IMG/VR virus record: IMGVR_UViG_3300050343_000069
Location: 1 to 45,225 of that record
DNA: 45,225 nt
Source: a virus
Reading direction: 5' to 3' (one strand)
A program made the position numbers and the translations under genes. Below are positions 1,240-45,225 of the stretch, piece after piece (within the stretch, counting starts at the first letter, position 1; each line of letters opens with the position of its first letter). The notes beneath the pieces were generated by a model. It was not told the DNA's origin. It saw only the letters and a program-made list of their open reading frames with translations, and did not search any database.

Positions 1240-1508
1240 AGTAGTGGTATTACTGTATAGAAGACTCAGGTCGGATGTTGTGAGATAAATCTCCCAATCC
1301 GAATGACTTCGTCTTGAGGCTGTGATGTGATCGCTGTCGCTCTCAAATCTACGCCTAGGCCTAGTGCATTTGTGTTACTTAGAGGCCGCCTAGAAAGCCT
1401 CTCAAGCACTGTGTTGTTAACTCACAGTCCAGTCAATTTGTACGGTATGTATGTGGTGGTAGAAGGAAAGGCCCCCTGTCAATCGGAGGCCAATCACCGC
1501 AAATCCAC

Positions 1509-1532
1509 ACAAGAGAGCACCACTTCTCTTGT
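1509..1532. other. 8-bp perfect hairpin
   Basis: ACAAGAGA (1509-1516) and TCTCTTGT (1525-1532) are perfect reverse complements around an 8-base loop GCACCACT. The 3' arm overlaps the start of the 24-base repeat shared with the RNA polymerase gene. Confidence 0.65.
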
Positions 1533-1551
1533 AAACGGGCGACACCAAAAC
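1528..1551. repeat. 24-bp exact repeat, copy 1 (non-coding)
   Basis: The 24 bases beginning CTTGTAAACGGGCGAC and ending ACCAAAAC are identical, in the same orientation, to 40648-40671 inside the RNA polymerase gene. The match ends one base after the terminase stop flank and is immediately preceded by the 8-bp hairpin. A chance 24-base match within 45 kb is very unlikely. Confidence 0.9.
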
Positions 1552-1552
1552 C

Positions 1553-2329
1553 TTACCAACCCCAAACCTTAGTACTACCAGTGTTCTTCAGGTGTTTAAA
1601 GGACTGGCCAAGGACCAATGCATCTGTGGCTAAGTGGGGGTGATCTTCAAAGGCTTGTGTCATTGCTTTCCACTCTTCGTGTTTCCTCATTGCTTGTGCT
1701 TTGAAGGCGCTCTGAGCGACAGCATCAACGAAGTATTGGACGCCTTGGGCTAGTGCATCGACGCGGTCATCGTGTTTGACAGCACCTCTGTCACGACACA
1801 TACGAGACATCTGATATCCGAGCATGTACTCCAGTCGTTTTTCAGGAGCAGCGTCAGGGTTGGAGGTGTAGTCGTACTCCCAGACCTTGGGGTCAATGAT
1901 CAGCTTGTGCTGGTTCATGACAGGTTCAAGGGTTTCAATGATCCGCTCTTCTTTACGGGAAGAGGCACGAACTTCTTCAATATCCATACCAGCACCCATT
2001 TGTGATGTATGGCGTTTAAATAGTTCGCAAATCATTCCGTCTCCGAAGTTACTTTCGATGAGAAGACGAGTTGCCCTATATCTTTTGCCAAGCCGTACAA
2101 TACTACTGAGGGTGCTATCAGAGTACCCATCACGGAAAGCAAGCATATCCCTAACAAAGAGGTAACCATTAGCTTGTGAGATAACCACAGCAGTTGTTTC
2201 ATCTGTACCACGTCCAGAAGGGTCTACAGAGACGATTGTTTCTGCGAAGGGTACGATTCCCTCATCAATAAACATTGGCCCGTAGAAGCGGTCTCCGGGC
2301 AGTCCTACGGGGTTTAACTCTTTATGCAT
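1553..2329 (-). CDS. terL: Terminase large subunit, C-terminal nuclease part
   Basis: This frame carries the RNase H-like nuclease domain of the T7 gp19-type packaging motor. It shows the first acidic residue in SVDPSGRGTDET, a second block around IESNFGDG and the late acidic motif KHDDRVDALAQG. The first ATG in frame is at 2329, but homologous-looking sequence (TPLGNECAEAYAWS...) extends upstream in this frame to about 2380, where it meets the N-terminal ATPase frame. The two parts together give about 574 residues, close to T7 gp19 (586). So this is most likely not a separate gene but the second half of terL, reached by a +1 shift or separated by an indel. Confidence 0.88.
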   Translation of the reverse strand: MHKELNPVGLPGDRFYGPMFIDEGIVPFAETIVSVDPSGRGTDETTAVVISQANGYLFVRDMLAFRDGYSDSTLSSIVRLGKRYRATRLLIESNFGDGMICELFKRHTSQMGAGMDIEEVRASSRKEERIIETLEPVMNQHKLIIDPKVWEYDYTSNPDAAPEKRLEYMLGYQMSRMCRDRGAVKHDDRVDALAQGVQYFVDAVAQSAFKAQAMRKHEEWKAMTQAFEDHPHLATDALVLGQSFKHLKNTGSTKVWGW

Positions 2330-2372
2330 ATATCGAGGATCAGCAGACCATGCATAAGCCTCAGCACATTCA

Positions 2373-3275
2373 TTACCTAAAGGGGGTAACGATTAGATCT
2401 TGGAACTTAAGTGGAAACTTCTCAGAGTCAGACAAGCTGGTATCCAGCATGAACTGCAGCATGAAGTTCGAGCGGCCCATAGCCGCCTCCCTTTCCATCA
2501 AGTCCAGGTCACTAAACCTCGTATCTGTAGGTGTGCCGGGATCCTGTCCTCTCTCAATATCCTCGACCAACTGTGGTGCGAGTAATCCTTCATACTTTCC
2601 GAGATCTTTCGGGTATCTAGCTGGCCAGACAAATGGCCTGTACGAACGCTCGGCCAACTTTCTATAGACTGTGAATGTCGACTGCGGTGTCCCGAGAAAG
2701 AGTATTCGGCTATCATCTTGAGGTGTTAAAATAGATTCTGATTCGGTAACTAGCTGAAGCAACTTTTCCCGTTGCATGTCTGTAGCTGAGTTGGAAGGTA
2801 CTTCAACGTCATCAAAGATCATCAGATCTGCGCGGCTCCCGGTCATCTGACCTTGGATTCCAACGCTCTTGACGGACGGGGCTTGATGAGGTTTAGCGGG
2901 GCCAACATCAAAAGAGATACGACTCCAACGTTGGTCGCTGTCTTTAGGTCCTAGATGTCCTAACCACTCAATATCTAGGATAAGTTTCTGACAGAAGATT
3001 GAGAAGTTATCGGCTCGTTCCTTGGAGGCTGAGATGACCATGACCTTGCGATCTGGATCATTAAATAAAATCCAAAGCACAAATGCAGCACTAATCCAAG
3101 ACTTACCAACACCTCGAAATGCACTAATCTGTAATCGTTTGGGTCCATATTGCAAGTATTCAGCTATTGCTAGTTGTGCCCTTGTGGGCTTTGGGAGATC
3201 TAGTTCTCTCCACACCAGTGTCAGAAAGACTCTGAAGTCTTCCTTCATCTTGGTCTCTAGTTCTTGTAAATCCAT
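2373..3275 (-). CDS. terL: Terminase large subunit, N-terminal ATPase part
   Basis: This is the packaging ATPase half of T7 gp19-like terminase. It has the Walker A-like SAFRGVGKSW at residues 51-60, Walker B LMIFDDVE with the catalytic Glu, and a coupling motif region ILFLGTPQS. I chose the ATG at 3275 (MDLQELETK). The open frame reaches 3305 with an alternative start. It ends early at TAA (2373-2375), right after the codons ACC CCC TTT AGG. Reading CCC then skipping one base gives TTA GGT AAT and joins the nuclease frame smoothly (VTP-LGN). The upstream ORF overlaps by 116 bases, which is unusually long for this genome. Confidence 0.88.
   Translation of the reverse strand: MDLQELETKMKEDFRVFLTLVWRELDLPKPTRAQLAIAEYLQYGPKRLQISAFRGVGKSWISAAFVLWILFNDPDRKVMVISASKERADNFSIFCQKLILDIEWLGHLGPKDSDQRWSRISFDVGPAKPHQAPSVKSVGIQGQMTGSRADLMIFDDVEVPSNSATDMQREKLLQLVTESESILTPQDDSRILFLGTPQSTFTVYRKLAERSYRPFVWPARYPKDLGKYEGLLAPQLVEDIERGQDPGTPTDTRFSDLDLMEREAAMGRSNFMLQFMLDTSLSDSEKFPLKFQDLIVTPFR
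2378..2387 (-). promoter_or_regulatory. Candidate +1 frameshift site in terL
   Basis: On the minus strand the zero-frame codons are ACC CCC TTT AGG TAA. Shifting +1 after CCC gives TTA GGT and continues into the nuclease domain. CCC followed by U is a known kind of +1 slip site. A one-base insertion error in the C5-T3 run would give the same picture. Confidence 0.55.
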
Positions 3276-3537
3276 ATTTGTATTCGAGGATCGGCAGCCC
3301 TTCAACTTCAGAAGGCTCTGAGTGATATGTAGGAGGCTCTATAAGGGGCTCAGGAGGTGCTACAGGTGCGATGGCATCATCGACAGTTTTACGCACCTTG
3401 TGGTCGATGTAATACGTCTCTAAGCCGAACAACCAAGATTTAATAAACCATCGAATAATCGGGGGCAGCTTGAGCTTGTCAATCCACCCCGCGATCATCT
3501 TGAAGTCATTCAGCCGATAGTTAATCGGCGGTAGCAT
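3160..3537 (-). CDS. Hypothetical protein upstream of terminase
   Basis: The 125-residue frame starts at an ATG that overlaps the stop of the previous gene (TAATG). Residues 1-60 include a hydrophobic/amphipathic region (KLPPIIRWFIKSWLFG) that could bind membrane, followed by a Pro/Glu-rich linker (APPEPLIEPPTYHSEP). The last 35-40 residues overlap the start of terL in another frame and look less natural. So the real protein may end earlier, or the overlap may reflect an indel. I do not recognise a function. Its place next to the terminase and lysis-type genes is the only context. Confidence 0.6.
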   Translation of the reverse strand: MLPPINYRLNDFKMIAGWIDKLKLPPIIRWFIKSWLFGLETYYIDHKVRKTVDDAIAPVAPPEPLIEPPTYHSEPSEVEGLPILEYKYGFTRTRDQDEGRLQSLSDTGVERTRSPKAHKGTTSNS

Positions 3538-4862: not shown

Positions 4863-5132
4863 TTAAGCAGTTTTTAAAACGATGAAATCTTCCACCCGCA
4901 TGGATCCCTTAAGTTGATTACAGGAACGACATGCCGTCGTGCAGTTGGAAGCTGACCATCTATCACCACCCCTAGACCTGGGGTGTATATGGTCGATAGT
5001 TAGGTTATCTGTAGAGCCGCAATAGGTGCAGGCATTTCCGTCCCGATTAAAGATGTTTTCCCTCCACATTCTTTTCGCGTCAGAAGCGCGAAAGGTGAGG
5101 AGTTCGTGCATGAGGCTTCGGGGCGTATCCAT
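4863..5132 (-). CDS. HNH endonuclease
   Basis: 89 residues. The core shows CTYCGSTDNLTIDHIHPRSR with the HNH-type DH pair, then GGDRWSASNCTTACRSCNQLKG with the Asn/His-like positions and the second CxxC zinc pair. Such small HNH proteins are either free-standing homing endonucleases or partners of terminase in packaging. This one sits between the small and large terminase genes, the arrangement seen when HNH nucleases assist cos or concatemer cleavage. The role here is inferred. Confidence 0.85.
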   Translation of the reverse strand: MDTPRSLMHELLTFRASDAKRMWRENIFNRDGNACTYCGSTDNLTIDHIHPRSRGGDRWSASNCTTACRSCNQLKGSMRVEDFIVLKTA

Positions 5133-38549: not shown

Positions 38550-38950
38550 TGGTCTTTGATAGGCATGGTGAGCTGTTGTTCAACAAGGTTGGTGAATTGT
38601 TCACCCTTAGGGGTAAGAAACAATCTCCAACACTTGGGGTTTACGGGATCAACTTCCCTTCTCACGAGCTTCAGGCCTGAGCGATGCTCGAGCCTGTGCT
38701 GTGGTCCTAGCCAAGTGACACAGCGTGACACCGATGATGGCGACATACCCACCGCTGCGGCTACATCCTGTTGTTTGCAGCCGTTGTGAGCGGCTACCCA
38801 GAAGTAGACAGACGCCAGCTGTAGTGGAAACTCTCTCTCGTTTTGCGAGCGGAGAAGTTCCATCACCAGATAGGTGCGATACAGGTTGGTGTTGGTGAGC
38901 TTTGGCTTACTCATGAGGCGGGGAGGTGAGCCGTACATAGATTGTAGCAT
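38546..38950 (-). CDS. MarR-like winged-helix regulator
   Basis: 134 residues from ATG 38950 (other starts at 38938 and 38914 are possible). A winged-helix pattern is present: QLASVYFWVAAHNGCKQQDV, AAAVGMSPSSVSRCVTWLG as recognition region and a wing (REVDPVNPKCWRLFLTPKGE). The tail matches the MarR style (QFTNLVEQ). It precedes and overlaps the integrase, so it may control integrase expression. The recurrent motif directly abuts the first ATG. Confidence 0.82.
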   Translation of the reverse strand: MLQSMYGSPPRLMSKPKLTNTNLYRTYLVMELLRSQNEREFPLQLASVYFWVAAHNGCKQQDVAAAVGMSPSSVSRCVTWLGPQHRLEHRSGLKLVRREVDPVNPKCWRLFLTPKGEQFTNLVEQQLTMPIKDQ

Positions 38951-38964
38951 TGGCTAAGTGCAAA
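38950..38964 (-). promoter_or_regulatory. Recurrent early motif (MarR-like gene)
   Basis: Minus strand TTTGCACTTAGCCA directly followed by ATG of the MarR-like gene. A perfect copy of the consensus. Confidence 0.65.
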
Positions 38965-38966
38965 CG

Positions 38967-39131
38967 TCAGCTCGGATGATCTGTCGGTGTGAACGAGAGC
39001 TCCCAGTGGTAGTTCTCTTCCAACTGGTCGCCTATGGCCACAAGGATTTCGGCTTGCTCATAAAACCCCCCATCGACATAGGTGGCTATTCGTTCAAGCA
39101 GAGTTTCGTTGGTAAACGTTGGGAGGTTCAT
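38967..39131 (-). CDS. Small acidic hypothetical protein after RNA polymerase
   Basis: 54 residues: MNLPTFTNETLLERIATYVD ... AIGDQLEENYHWELSFTPTD. Its ATG overlaps the polymerase stop as TGATG. Helical and acidic. No family recognised. Its stop lies just upstream of the motif copy preceding the MarR-like gene. Confidence 0.75.
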   Translation of the reverse strand: MNLPTFTNETLLERIATYVDGGFYEQAEILVAIGDQLEENYHWELSFTPTDHPS

Positions 39132-41476
39132 CAGCAGAAGAAGTAAGTGGACTCTTTGACCGTTTCAGGGTCGAAGGTGTACTGCATCGGCGGTGGGGTT
39201 TCGGCCCCGATCGCCTCGGCAAAGTCGTGTAAGGGGGAGTGATGGAGAAAGATCTCCACGTAGGCATCCCGAACAGCGGCTTGCATCGCATCCATGTGAT
39301 TTGCACCACATAGGACCGAGTCATGGATCACCGTGAAGGGTCCAGCGAAGTCCTTAAGACCGATCTGGAGGATGGAGGAGTCCAAGCTGTGGATCAGATT
39401 CGGACTACCTGCGTTCTTGTGGTGGTTGAGGTCTGGCTCACCTAGTGAGGTGCCGATATGGAGATCCACTCGGCCCATAAGGTGGGCTTTGATCCGCTCA
39501 GTGTTGACCTTGCGGAGATCTTGTTTAACAGCGAAACCAGAGGGCGTGGTCCACTCAATGTGATCCCTGCCGCTTTTGATCGCGTTGCTGATCTCTTTGT
39601 TCAACCAACTCATTACCTCCATAGGACCGGGAACGATCTCATTCATGGCCTCGCGTGTGAGGCGGACGATGATCGTCAGTTGGTCTGGTGTGATTTCCAG
39701 GCCGCGATCCTTCAGCGCATCACGTATCGACTGGCGATTGGAGTGAGGCTGTGAGTTGTACGGAACAGTCATCACGACTTTTTTGACGTCGGATCTCGAG
39801 AGTTGGATGGCCCATTCCTGAGGGAGCTTTGGGTTGACCCGATTGGCTACTGCTTTGTAGGCATCGCTCGGTTTAGAACCGGGGAACACATTCACAAGCT
39901 CAGCTGTCGAACCGTCGTGGCTCAAACCCGCCAGGACCTGGAGGCCCGAGCAGGTGGCGTCTACGGCCGTAGCGAGGCGCGTGTGAGTTCTGGTCTTAGC
40001 GATCACGAGGGAGTAATACTCCTCAGCAGCAGCCAAGAACAGGAACGGCTCGTCGCATCCTTCCCATTCGGAGATGTTTCCGATCGGGTCGGTAGCGATC
40101 GCCGTGATGATGGCGAGAGCCTCGGGGGATTTGGCCCACTCTTGGCGCTCCTCCATCGTTGCTTTGTCCAACCCGTAGGTGGTGGCCAGTTGGAAGCGCA
40201 ACCAATAAAGGCCACGTTCAGTCAACGGCTCACCGTCCGCGAATCTCACAAGGCTCTTACCAAAGCAAGTGTCCTGAGGCGTGAGGAAAGCAGGGATTGG
40301 GTAGACACGGCCCCGGTAGTCGTAGCTCCAGGGGAGGTAGTAGCGCTCTTCCTTCGCGAAGCGGCGAGCTGTTGCCAGCGTCAGCTTTGTGCGAATGCAG
40401 CGCTTGAGGCTTGTGCTGTTGTGGTCGTAAACCTCAACGCATTGTTTCCGATAAGCTGACCTCGCCTCCTTGTTGGTGGCGATGTCGTACGGCTTCTCGG
40501 GAAGCGGGAGTGTGTCGGCTGGAAGGAATTTCCCAAGCTTTACAGCGTAGGAATCCTGCTCCAACCGATTTGCCACACCGAGAATGAACGGATTGACTTG
40601 ATAGGCGACCCGTTGCAAGTGATTTAGGAACTGGAGAGGCGTCTCTCCTTGTAAACGGGCGACACCAAAACTTCGTATCAGCTTGTTACCGACACGAGCT
40701 TGGTTGCAGTAGTAACCACCGGCTTGTTCATTAGTCCAGTCATTTGGCTCGCAGATCATCGGAAGGTTGATGGGCGCGAAGAGTTCCGCGTTTCTCATCA
40801 AGCCGTTGATGATGGTGAGCATCTCCGGGGTCGGCTGGATGTAGGCATTAGTGCGCTTACCTGTCCGCTTCAGTTGGCGTTGCCACCAACCCGTCGCAGT
40901 ACAGGCAGCCTCAGTAAAGGCGGCCCCGATCTTGACTCGTGAGAGGCGCGGCCAAGGGTCCCAGCTGATGCCCTTTTCCTTGAATCTGCGGGTGCAGTCG
41001 TAGTCCTTGTAATGGAGACCTTTGCCGGAGTGCTGCCCTTGTGTGATCCATTTAAGGAGCAGTGGATCCTTCTCGTTGAAGTACCTCCACTTAGCTTCCT
41101 GTTCGACGGCAATGCCAACGCGATCGATGACGTTGTTGGCGAGGTCATCACGATCCTTTGGGGATGTGCAGACATCGAACAGCACCTTGATCACCAAGAG
41201 GGCCAAAGTCTCATCGTCGATTGTCATTGTGTAGTGCGCGAGATCCGCCAGAGCAGCGCCAGCCTTACCTCGGATGAGGCGGTTGATTCTGATCTTGTTG
41301 ATCTCTTGCGCTACCGCAGGGATGGCCGTTCTCAGCATCTTTTGGGCGTAAGCCGTTGATGATGCGTAGGCGTTGTCCTCTGCTTTGCGTGTGTTGTCGC
41401 GTAGCTGAGTGATGCCGTCTTGGATCTGTTGGGTCTCCAGCTGGATCTGTCGCTCGATCTGTGCTGGTGTTGGCAT
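39131..41476 (-). CDS. T7-like single-subunit RNA polymerase
   Basis: 781 residues (T7: 883; the N-terminal domain is shorter). Catalytic elements are D506 in AVDATCSGLQ, the lysine/tyrosine region DVKKVVMTVPYNSQPHSNRQ at about 560, and D719 in VIHDSVLCGAN. The C-terminus ends YFFC, close to the FAFA end of T7. It would transcribe middle and late genes. The start ATG at 41476 directly follows a copy of the recurrent motif (TTGCCACTAAGCCAAC). The codons at 40648-40671 (FGVARLQG) are the source-like copy of the 24-bp repeat. Confidence 0.97.
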   Translation of the reverse strand: MPTPAQIERQIQLETQQIQDGITQLRDNTRKAEDNAYASSTAYAQKMLRTAIPAVAQEINKIRINRLIRGKAGAALADLAHYTMTIDDETLALLVIKVLFDVCTSPKDRDDLANNVIDRVGIAVEQEAKWRYFNEKDPLLLKWITQGQHSGKGLHYKDYDCTRRFKEKGISWDPWPRLSRVKIGAAFTEAACTATGWWQRQLKRTGKRTNAYIQPTPEMLTIINGLMRNAELFAPINLPMICEPNDWTNEQAGGYYCNQARVGNKLIRSFGVARLQGETPLQFLNHLQRVAYQVNPFILGVANRLEQDSYAVKLGKFLPADTLPLPEKPYDIATNKEARSAYRKQCVEVYDHNSTSLKRCIRTKLTLATARRFAKEERYYLPWSYDYRGRVYPIPAFLTPQDTCFGKSLVRFADGEPLTERGLYWLRFQLATTYGLDKATMEERQEWAKSPEALAIITAIATDPIGNISEWEGCDEPFLFLAAAEEYYSLVIAKTRTHTRLATAVDATCSGLQVLAGLSHDGSTAELVNVFPGSKPSDAYKAVANRVNPKLPQEWAIQLSRSDVKKVVMTVPYNSQPHSNRQSIRDALKDRGLEITPDQLTIIVRLTREAMNEIVPGPMEVMSWLNKEISNAIKSGRDHIEWTTPSGFAVKQDLRKVNTERIKAHLMGRVDLHIGTSLGEPDLNHHKNAGSPNLIHSLDSSILQIGLKDFAGPFTVIHDSVLCGANHMDAMQAAVRDAYVEIFLHHSPLHDFAEAIGAETPPPMQYTFDPETVKESTYFFC
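40648..40671. repeat. 24-bp exact repeat, copy 2 (inside RNA polymerase)
   Basis: Identical to 1528-1551, same orientation. Here it is coding and specifies VARLQ and flanking residues in the N-terminal half of the polymerase. The other copy is non-coding. Confidence 0.9.
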
Positions 41477-42346: not shown

Positions 42347-42351
42347 TGTGG

Positions 42352-42366
42352 TTGGCTATGTGCAAG
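42352..42366 (-). promoter_or_regulatory. Recurrent early motif
   Basis: Minus strand CTTGCACATAGCCAA, 5 bases before an ATG that opens a six-codon leader ORF. Confidence 0.6.
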
Positions 42367-43240: not shown

Positions 43241-43363
43241 CTATCCGTTGCCGTGTGGCCGGGTCAGTTGCTCCCGGTGCTCTTGGTCGGTCGGCTTGCG
43301 GTGGCCTGTCGATGCATCAAGTATTGCGAGTGGTTGGCTATGTGCAAGGTCACATAGATACAT
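43241..43363 (-). CDS. Doubtful 40-residue ORF
   Basis: MYLCDLAHSQPLAILDASTG ... LTRPHGNG. It runs through a motif copy and has no Shine-Dalgarno. It is the only open frame in the 43197-43520 gap, which otherwise holds terminators. Could be non-coding leader. Confidence 0.25.
   Translation of the reverse strand: MYLCDLAHSQPLAILDASTGHRKPTDQEHREQLTRPHGNG
43334..43348 (-). promoter_or_regulatory. Recurrent early motif
   Basis: Minus strand CTTGCACATAGCCAA. A TTGCAC with AATACT 16 bases on looks like a sigma70-type promoter, and GCATCG follows as in two other copies. Confidence 0.55.
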
Positions 43364-43969: not shown

Positions 43970-44012
43970 GGTTTGGAGGGGGTGTCCGATGCCCTGAATA
44001 TTAGAGCATCGG

Positions 44013-44027
44013 TTGGCTAAGTGCAAG
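44013..44027 (-). promoter_or_regulatory. Recurrent early motif with promoter-like -10
   Basis: Minus strand CTTGCACTTAGCCAA. TTGCAC is followed 17 bases later by TAATAT, a good sigma70-type arrangement, then GGGCATCGG. Four bases after the motif, ATG CTC TAA (44001-44009) is a two-codon mini-ORF. Confidence 0.6.
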
Positions 44028-44716: not shown

Positions 44717-44953
44717 TTACTTATCGTCTTCGATCCAATCCAACAGGGAGATCTCGGCCCGTGTGGTCTCGTCGATGATCCACTCCTGTTCGATTGCTTC
44801 AACTCGGCTGATCACTTCGAGCTGATCTTCTGTTAGGTCCTTCTCATCAATGTCGTCGGGGATGGCCTTCAGCATGGATTCCATGTGGTGGTACATCTCA
44901 GCCAGCGATCTGGTGATGTGGGCGTGATACAGCTTTTCCTTGTCGTTCAGCAT
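44717..44953 (-). CDS. First early gene, acidic hypothetical protein
   Basis: 78 residues from ATG 44953: MLNDKEKLYHAHITRSLAEM ... SLLDWIEDDK. Acidic and helical. It is the first gene to enter the cell if the right end is injected first, as in T7. GAGG precedes the ATG by 6 bases. The open frame extends into the terminal repeat but without support. Possible anti-host role by position only. Confidence 0.75.
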   Translation of the reverse strand: MLNDKEKLYHAHITRSLAEMYHHMESMLKAIPDDIDEKDLTEDQLEVISRVEAIEQEWIIDETTRAEISLLDWIEDDK

Positions 44954-44990: not shown

Positions 44991-45225
44991 GGGGAGAGGA
45001 GCAGGAAATCAAGCCGGGCTGATGCCTCGCGTGCGCCCACCTGCCTGCCTGCGCATGTTGGGTGTGCGTTAGATACTCAAACTAATGAGACCCCCTGCTA
45101 TGACTGGGGCCTGGCCTCCCTGGTCGATACTGGACCTACCCCACCACCCCTCAATTCTCAATAGGGGGGCCTGATTCTCAACAGCCGGGGGGTATGCGGG
45201 GGAAGCGCCAGCTTTGCGCTAGTAG
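44991..45225. repeat. Right direct terminal repeat (235 bp)
   Basis: Second copy of positions 1-235, with differences at 45050, 45054, 45055, 45062 and 45063. It ends with the last base of the window, so the window is probably the whole linear genome. The host-polymerase early promoters should lie in or just inside it, but I see no strong -35/-10 pair. Confidence 0.93.

Follow-up and report, generated by a model that had tools for sequence, protein, structure and literature searches.

The two identical 24-bp sequences at positions 1528-1551 and 40648-40671 of the window, the whole 45,225-nt stretch of DNA analyzed here, are best read from their sequence and placement as two promoters, probably the only two, of the phage's own T7-like RNA polymerase (RNAP), both acting on the minus strand (probability about 0.94). 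The window represents the genome of a Syn5-like cyanopodovirus and carries 235-bp direct repeats at its termini (1-235 and 44991-45225), which are 98% identical to each other and differ at five positions. Promoter pairs of this kind are known from phage Syn5, and the present pair adds a new member.

The repeat and its counterpart in Syn5

Repeat analysis of the window, in which the pair forms repeat family D19, confirmed that the two same-orientation copies are identical over 24 bp, as the first-pass annotation had reported, and its estimate of chance occurrence (about 1 in 10^5 or lower) was fair, the expectation for 24-mers in 45 kb being (45225^2/2)/4^24, or near 4e-6. When the 20-base core of the repeat was searched on both strands of the whole window with up to three mismatches allowed, only the 1528 and 40648 copies were recovered, and the same core had zero matches in 100 dinucleotide-preserving shuffles. 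Since the RNAP gene and terL, which encodes the terminase large subunit, both lie on the minus strand, the repeat reads GTTTTGGTGTCGCCCGTTTACAAG in the phage sense. The 40648 copy is coding and lies within the RNAP gene (39131-41476, minus strand), whose 781-aa product was assigned as a T7-like single-subunit RNA polymerase by alignment and by its match to T7 RNAP structures. The 1528 copy is non-coding, as also annotated earlier; in the phage sense, it directly follows the terL stop codon (1553-1555) and belongs to no recognised gene. An assembly artefact at this copy, which would have undermined the original observation, is unlikely because an independent IMG/VR contig (L008/L086) carries both copies. 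In the adjacent terL region (1553-3305, minus strand), a frameshift within a C-rich run breaks the open frame, likely a sequencing or assembly error since the near-identical contigs L006-L008 carry intact copies. A separate short repeat, GTGGTTGGCTATGTGCAAG, occurs with variants in the early region at 42348-42366, 43330-43348, 44009-44027, and 38950-38979 (repeat families D10 and D12).

The Syn5 RNA polymerase recognises ATTGGGCACCCGTAA and initiates at the next base, and only two RNAP promoters were described in the Syn5 genome, one of them within the RNAP gene; initiation by the cognate polymerase at the promoter word has been shown for Syn5 only (PMC3950665). In the Syn5 genome, we located exactly two promoter copies, at 4929 (within the RNAP gene) and at 44797 (directly past the terL stop). 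The window likewise has exactly two copies at the same two places, both oriented like the late genes, with the 40648-40671 copy at the homologous codons of the RNAP gene (counterpart of 4929) and the 1528-1551 copy directly past terL (counterpart of 44797). The promoter word itself differs between the two phages, which have in common only this general layout and the sequence past the start site. Beyond the right-end copy, the window and Syn5 continue identically with CAAGAGAAGTGGTGCTCTCTTGTGTGGATTTGCGGTGAT, and this run fixes the register, placing +1 at A1532 and, in the same register, at A40652. Promoter activity and the start site in this phage are what we infer from these comparisons, the start site being transferred from Syn5. 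Around this start, the identity between the copies spans about -19 to +5, mostly DNA that would be untranscribed from that promoter, and it ends at promoter-sized boundaries. The RNAP-internal promoter would drive transcription of roughly 37 kb of downstream genes, the body of the genome, and the right-end promoter, close to that end of the genome, would initiate an RNA at A1532.

Matching pairs of probable promoters and the polymerase specificity loop

The comparison suggested by the first-pass annotation, namely whether the terL 3' flank of each cyanopodovirus genome repeats a word of that genome's RNAP gene, gave a uniformly positive outcome. The shared words measure 24 bp in the window, 20 in Syn5, 23 in S-TIP28, 25 in S-CBP42, and 21 in both P60 and SS120-1; among further phages, they measure 20 in P-SSP7, 21 in S-CBP4, and 25 in P-SSP10. 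The first set comprised 34 genomes or contigs, reduced to 33 by leaving out L052, which does not span the RNAP site. At the homologous RNAP position, 32 of the 33 carry the flank word over 12 bp or more without a mismatch, and the remaining contig, L057, matched there at 17 of 19 bases. Addition of 15 genomes, one of which (L128) duplicates P-SSP2, brought the total to 47 distinct cases, which are partly non-independent phylogenetically: the terL 3' flank copies the genome's own polymerase-internal sequence in 47 of 47 holding both sites, and in 46 of them the exact word is 12 bp or longer.

The promoter words differ between lineages, though each within-genome pair is nearly identical. Comparisons between different genomes of the first set gave longest words mostly of 8-11 bases, and the longest exceptions came mainly from close relatives. 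The contrast between own-genome and cross-genome matches is weaker in the P-SSP7 set because the promoters of different genomes are more alike there and the cross-genome words longer. No third copy of the word was found with up to three mismatches in 13 genomes, and the Roseobacter phage CRP-118, a non-cyanobacterial relative, has no comparable pair at the site.

Within the RNAP gene, the promoter coincides with a linker that is variable and carries codon insertions; a Q-G motif that is nearly invariant follows directly. The word co-varies with the RNAP specificity loop, whose residues 660-673 (T7 745-758 by alignment to T7 RNAP) are encoded at 39458-39499 on the minus strand of the window. 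The RNAP of the sister contig L089 shares 91% identity with that of the window, and the L089 promoter differs at -11, -10, -8, -6, and -5, with the five changes identical in both copies. Substitutions between the two polymerases are densest over 14-residue stretches at 660-675 (those starting at 660, 661, and 662 tie), and residues 660-673 are substituted at 6 of 14 positions versus 65 of 767 elsewhere (Fisher p 8e-4). The changes include the counterparts of T7 N748 (K to D), R756 (D to A), and Q758 (H to N). In T7, N748 contacts -10/-11, R756 contacts -9, and Q758 contacts -8 (PMC5937735); base -9 is unchanged between the window and L089 promoters. Among 17 Syn5-type polymerases, the distance between promoters correlates with that between specificity loops even when overall RNAP distance is accounted for (partial Mantel r 0.25, p 0.008). 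Such co-change, as read from the sequences, is what a polymerase-promoter pair predicts.

Change of the word together with the specificity loop is expected of a promoter and is not required of an antisense RNA, a sponge, or a recombination site. A purely DNA-level role, in which the copies serve as a site for recombination, replication, or packaging recognition, would suit the location of one copy near the genome end adjoining terL, and gene conversion could keep the pair identical. We consider this role very unlikely given that the same positions are promoters in Syn5 (PMC3950665), that the sequence changes coincide with those in the promoter-reading loop of the polymerase, and that the identity stops at promoter-sized boundaries. 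The earlier suggestion of a recombination or recognition site on the concatemer holds in the broad sense of a recognition site; recombination lacks support, since the word tracks the specificity loop.

A conserved RNA element at the probable right-end promoter

The hairpin noted in the first-pass annotation as bordering the non-coding copy is present, but it overlaps the repeat: one 8-base arm, ACAAGAGA (1532-1525), pairs with TCTCTTGT (1516-1509) around the loop AGTGGTGC. It begins exactly at the inferred +1 of the right-end promoter, so that the putative RNA would carry a 5' hairpin (1509-1532, minus strand) with an 8-bp stem from +1 and the loop AGUGGUGC. Across 38 distinct Syn5-type sequences, all 304 stem cells pair, 7 of the 8 pairs show double compensatory changes, and shifting the stem partner by 1-3 columns abolishes the pairing pattern. 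Past the stem, Syn5-type elements have an invariant loop followed by a conserved tail, which alignment places in the window at 1494-1508 (minus strand) as the single-stranded GUGGAUUUGCGGUGA; the covariance model matches 1494-1533. The 38 sequences were retrieved via loop and tail, with the stem outside the search pattern, and the conservation of loop and tail is therefore partly a matter of ascertainment.

All wobble cells in these 38 sequences are G-U in the phage-sense RNA. They would be C-A mismatches in a plus-strand RNA, which indicates that the hairpin is structured in the minus-strand sense. This bears on two roles proposed in the first-pass annotation, a plus-strand RNA of 1528-1551 acting antisense to the polymerase mRNA and a late-transcript copy acting as a sponge for such an antisense RNA. 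The repeat itself offers perfect 24-nt complementarity, and P-SSP7 transcripts are described, in the introduction of one study, as widely covered by antisense RNAs in infection (PMC9692554). However, no sigma-70-like promoter was detected at 1200-1700 on either strand, the wobble pairs favor a minus-strand RNA, and what the two sites share in each genome is the same short block of promoter size, which changes between lineages together with the specificity loop. Both roles lack support and appear very unlikely.

The Syn5-type motif was matched directly in 71 of 99 terL-retrieved flanks, and most of the other flanks carry variants, either Syn5-type elements with insertions or a second type. Among newly fetched loci, all 32 that match the motif exactly have a terL end at most 250 nt upstream. 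The second type, with the loop AAGGGUGGA on a largely co-varying stem, was found past terL in 76 of 76 P-SSP7-type loci. Several Syn5-type elements (L055-L059, L062, and L070) have an extra stretch between hairpin and tail that resembles a second hairpin, which suggests that the tail is an independent module.

A host origin of the tail was rejected, as its 6 exact matches in a single scan of bacterial genomes are about the chance expectation for 18 bases plus phage-derived ones. A host RNA was also rejected; the covariance model matches only 3 of 34 genomes of the Synechococcus genus concerned, consistent with phage contigs or mobile elements. Relatives of the element outside lytic cyanopodoviruses were seen in the Synechococcus genomes of L247 (G018:C48), L250 (G025:C1, chromosome position 871746), and L203 (G019:C65). 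One is a contig with an integrase and its own single-subunit RNA polymerase upstream of the element, another is a chromosome with an RNA polymerase remnant upstream, and one contig carries the element without a recognised polymerase. These relatives possibly represent integrated phages or satellites.

Possible roles of the right-end unit

Downstream of the tail, a terminator-like hairpin with a T-rich tract (1462-1491, minus strand; stem 1491-1470) provides the putative 3' end of an RNA of ~70 nt. Terminator-like hairpins were found past 42 of 70 Syn5-type elements versus 1.6 in shuffles, and past 18 of 65 P-SSP7-type elements versus 0.2. The Syn5 RNAP ignored a T7 terminator in vitro (PMC3950665), which makes the 3' end uncertain. 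The genes past the element vary, with thyX in the window and Syn5, none annotated past terL in S-TIP28, and talC in P-SSP7; because the module stays constant while these genes change, it probably does not serve to express one downstream gene. According to the proposed mechanism, the RNA starting at A1532 would fold at once into the 8-bp 5' hairpin with the invariant loop, and the transcript would then run through the conserved tail to the terminator-like hairpin, giving ~70 nt. Right-end transcription would yield either this short RNA, its 5' end sealed, or a read-through transcript at the genome terminus.

The two copies could both be promoters while the right-end element is a mere 5' stabiliser of a long read-through transcript, with no separate small RNA. 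A stem from +1 would seal the 5' end, host RNase E goes up in P-SSP7 infection (PMC9692554), and the disregard of the T7 terminator by the Syn5 RNAP would also fit. A generic stabiliser leaves unexplained the invariant loop and conserved tail, the terminator-like hairpins, and the constancy of the module despite changing downstream genes, and we regard it as possible but rather unlikely. A dedicated small structured RNA appears to have about an even chance of being correct. In that case, the right-end promoter would make an RNA present in nearly all marine cyanopodoviruses, either with loop AGUGGUGY and tail UGUGGAUAUGCGGUGA or with loop AAGGGUGGA, and acting late in infection in packaging, genome-end processing, or host takeover. 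It would constitute a new family of phage RNAs, with related forms on polymerase-bearing elements in Synechococcus genomes.

Among other known systems, T7 has about 17 promoters in total, the rightmost being phi-OR. The right-end promoter resembles phi-OR in that it would be read by a phage RNAP and lies close to the right end of the genome, downstream of a packaging gene and about 1.3 kb before the terminal repeat (1-235), whereas the window has two promoters, with a conserved hairpin and a terminator-like element following the right-end one. The T7 gene 10 mRNA leader likewise has a stem-loop at the extreme 5' end of a transcript made by a phage RNAP; in the cyanophage element, in contrast, loop and tail are nearly invariant across diverged phages and the stem co-varies. 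The phi29 pRNA, a phage packaging RNA, is similarly a small structured RNA encoded near the genome end of a tailed phage, but the cyanophage element matches no Rfam sequence or structural family, and the analogy would be functional only. As a guess held at somewhat less than even confidence, the right-end unit may be a phi-OR-like terminal promoter that contributes, through its transcription or through the short RNA, to replication, genome-end processing, or packaging, while the hairpin would additionally shield the 5' end of the RNA.

Neither element type matched Rfam 15, with none above the gathering score, and no description of the conserved RNA was found in the literature searched; its function is therefore a concrete, testable question. 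As far as checked, this RNA, the lineage-specific words in every cyanopodovirus tested, and their match to specificity changes are new, and earlier notice of pairs in other cyanophages is possible. A 2024 survey identified promoter prediction as the bottleneck in putting new RNA polymerases to use, and for P-SSP7 and S-CBP42 it relied on other promoters, predicted computationally (PMC11475235). The words found here, AACCCCTACGTATACAGGGG in P-SSP7 and CATCTGGCCCATGTAAGCAGGGAGA in S-CBP42, differ from those promoters. By the rule that the promoter is the word common to the terL 3' flank and the polymerase gene, the promoter of a cyanopodovirus polymerase could be read directly from the genome. 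The pairs would also provide many natural polymerase-promoter combinations for the study of specificity co-evolution, with the promoter written within the coding sequence of the polymerase itself.
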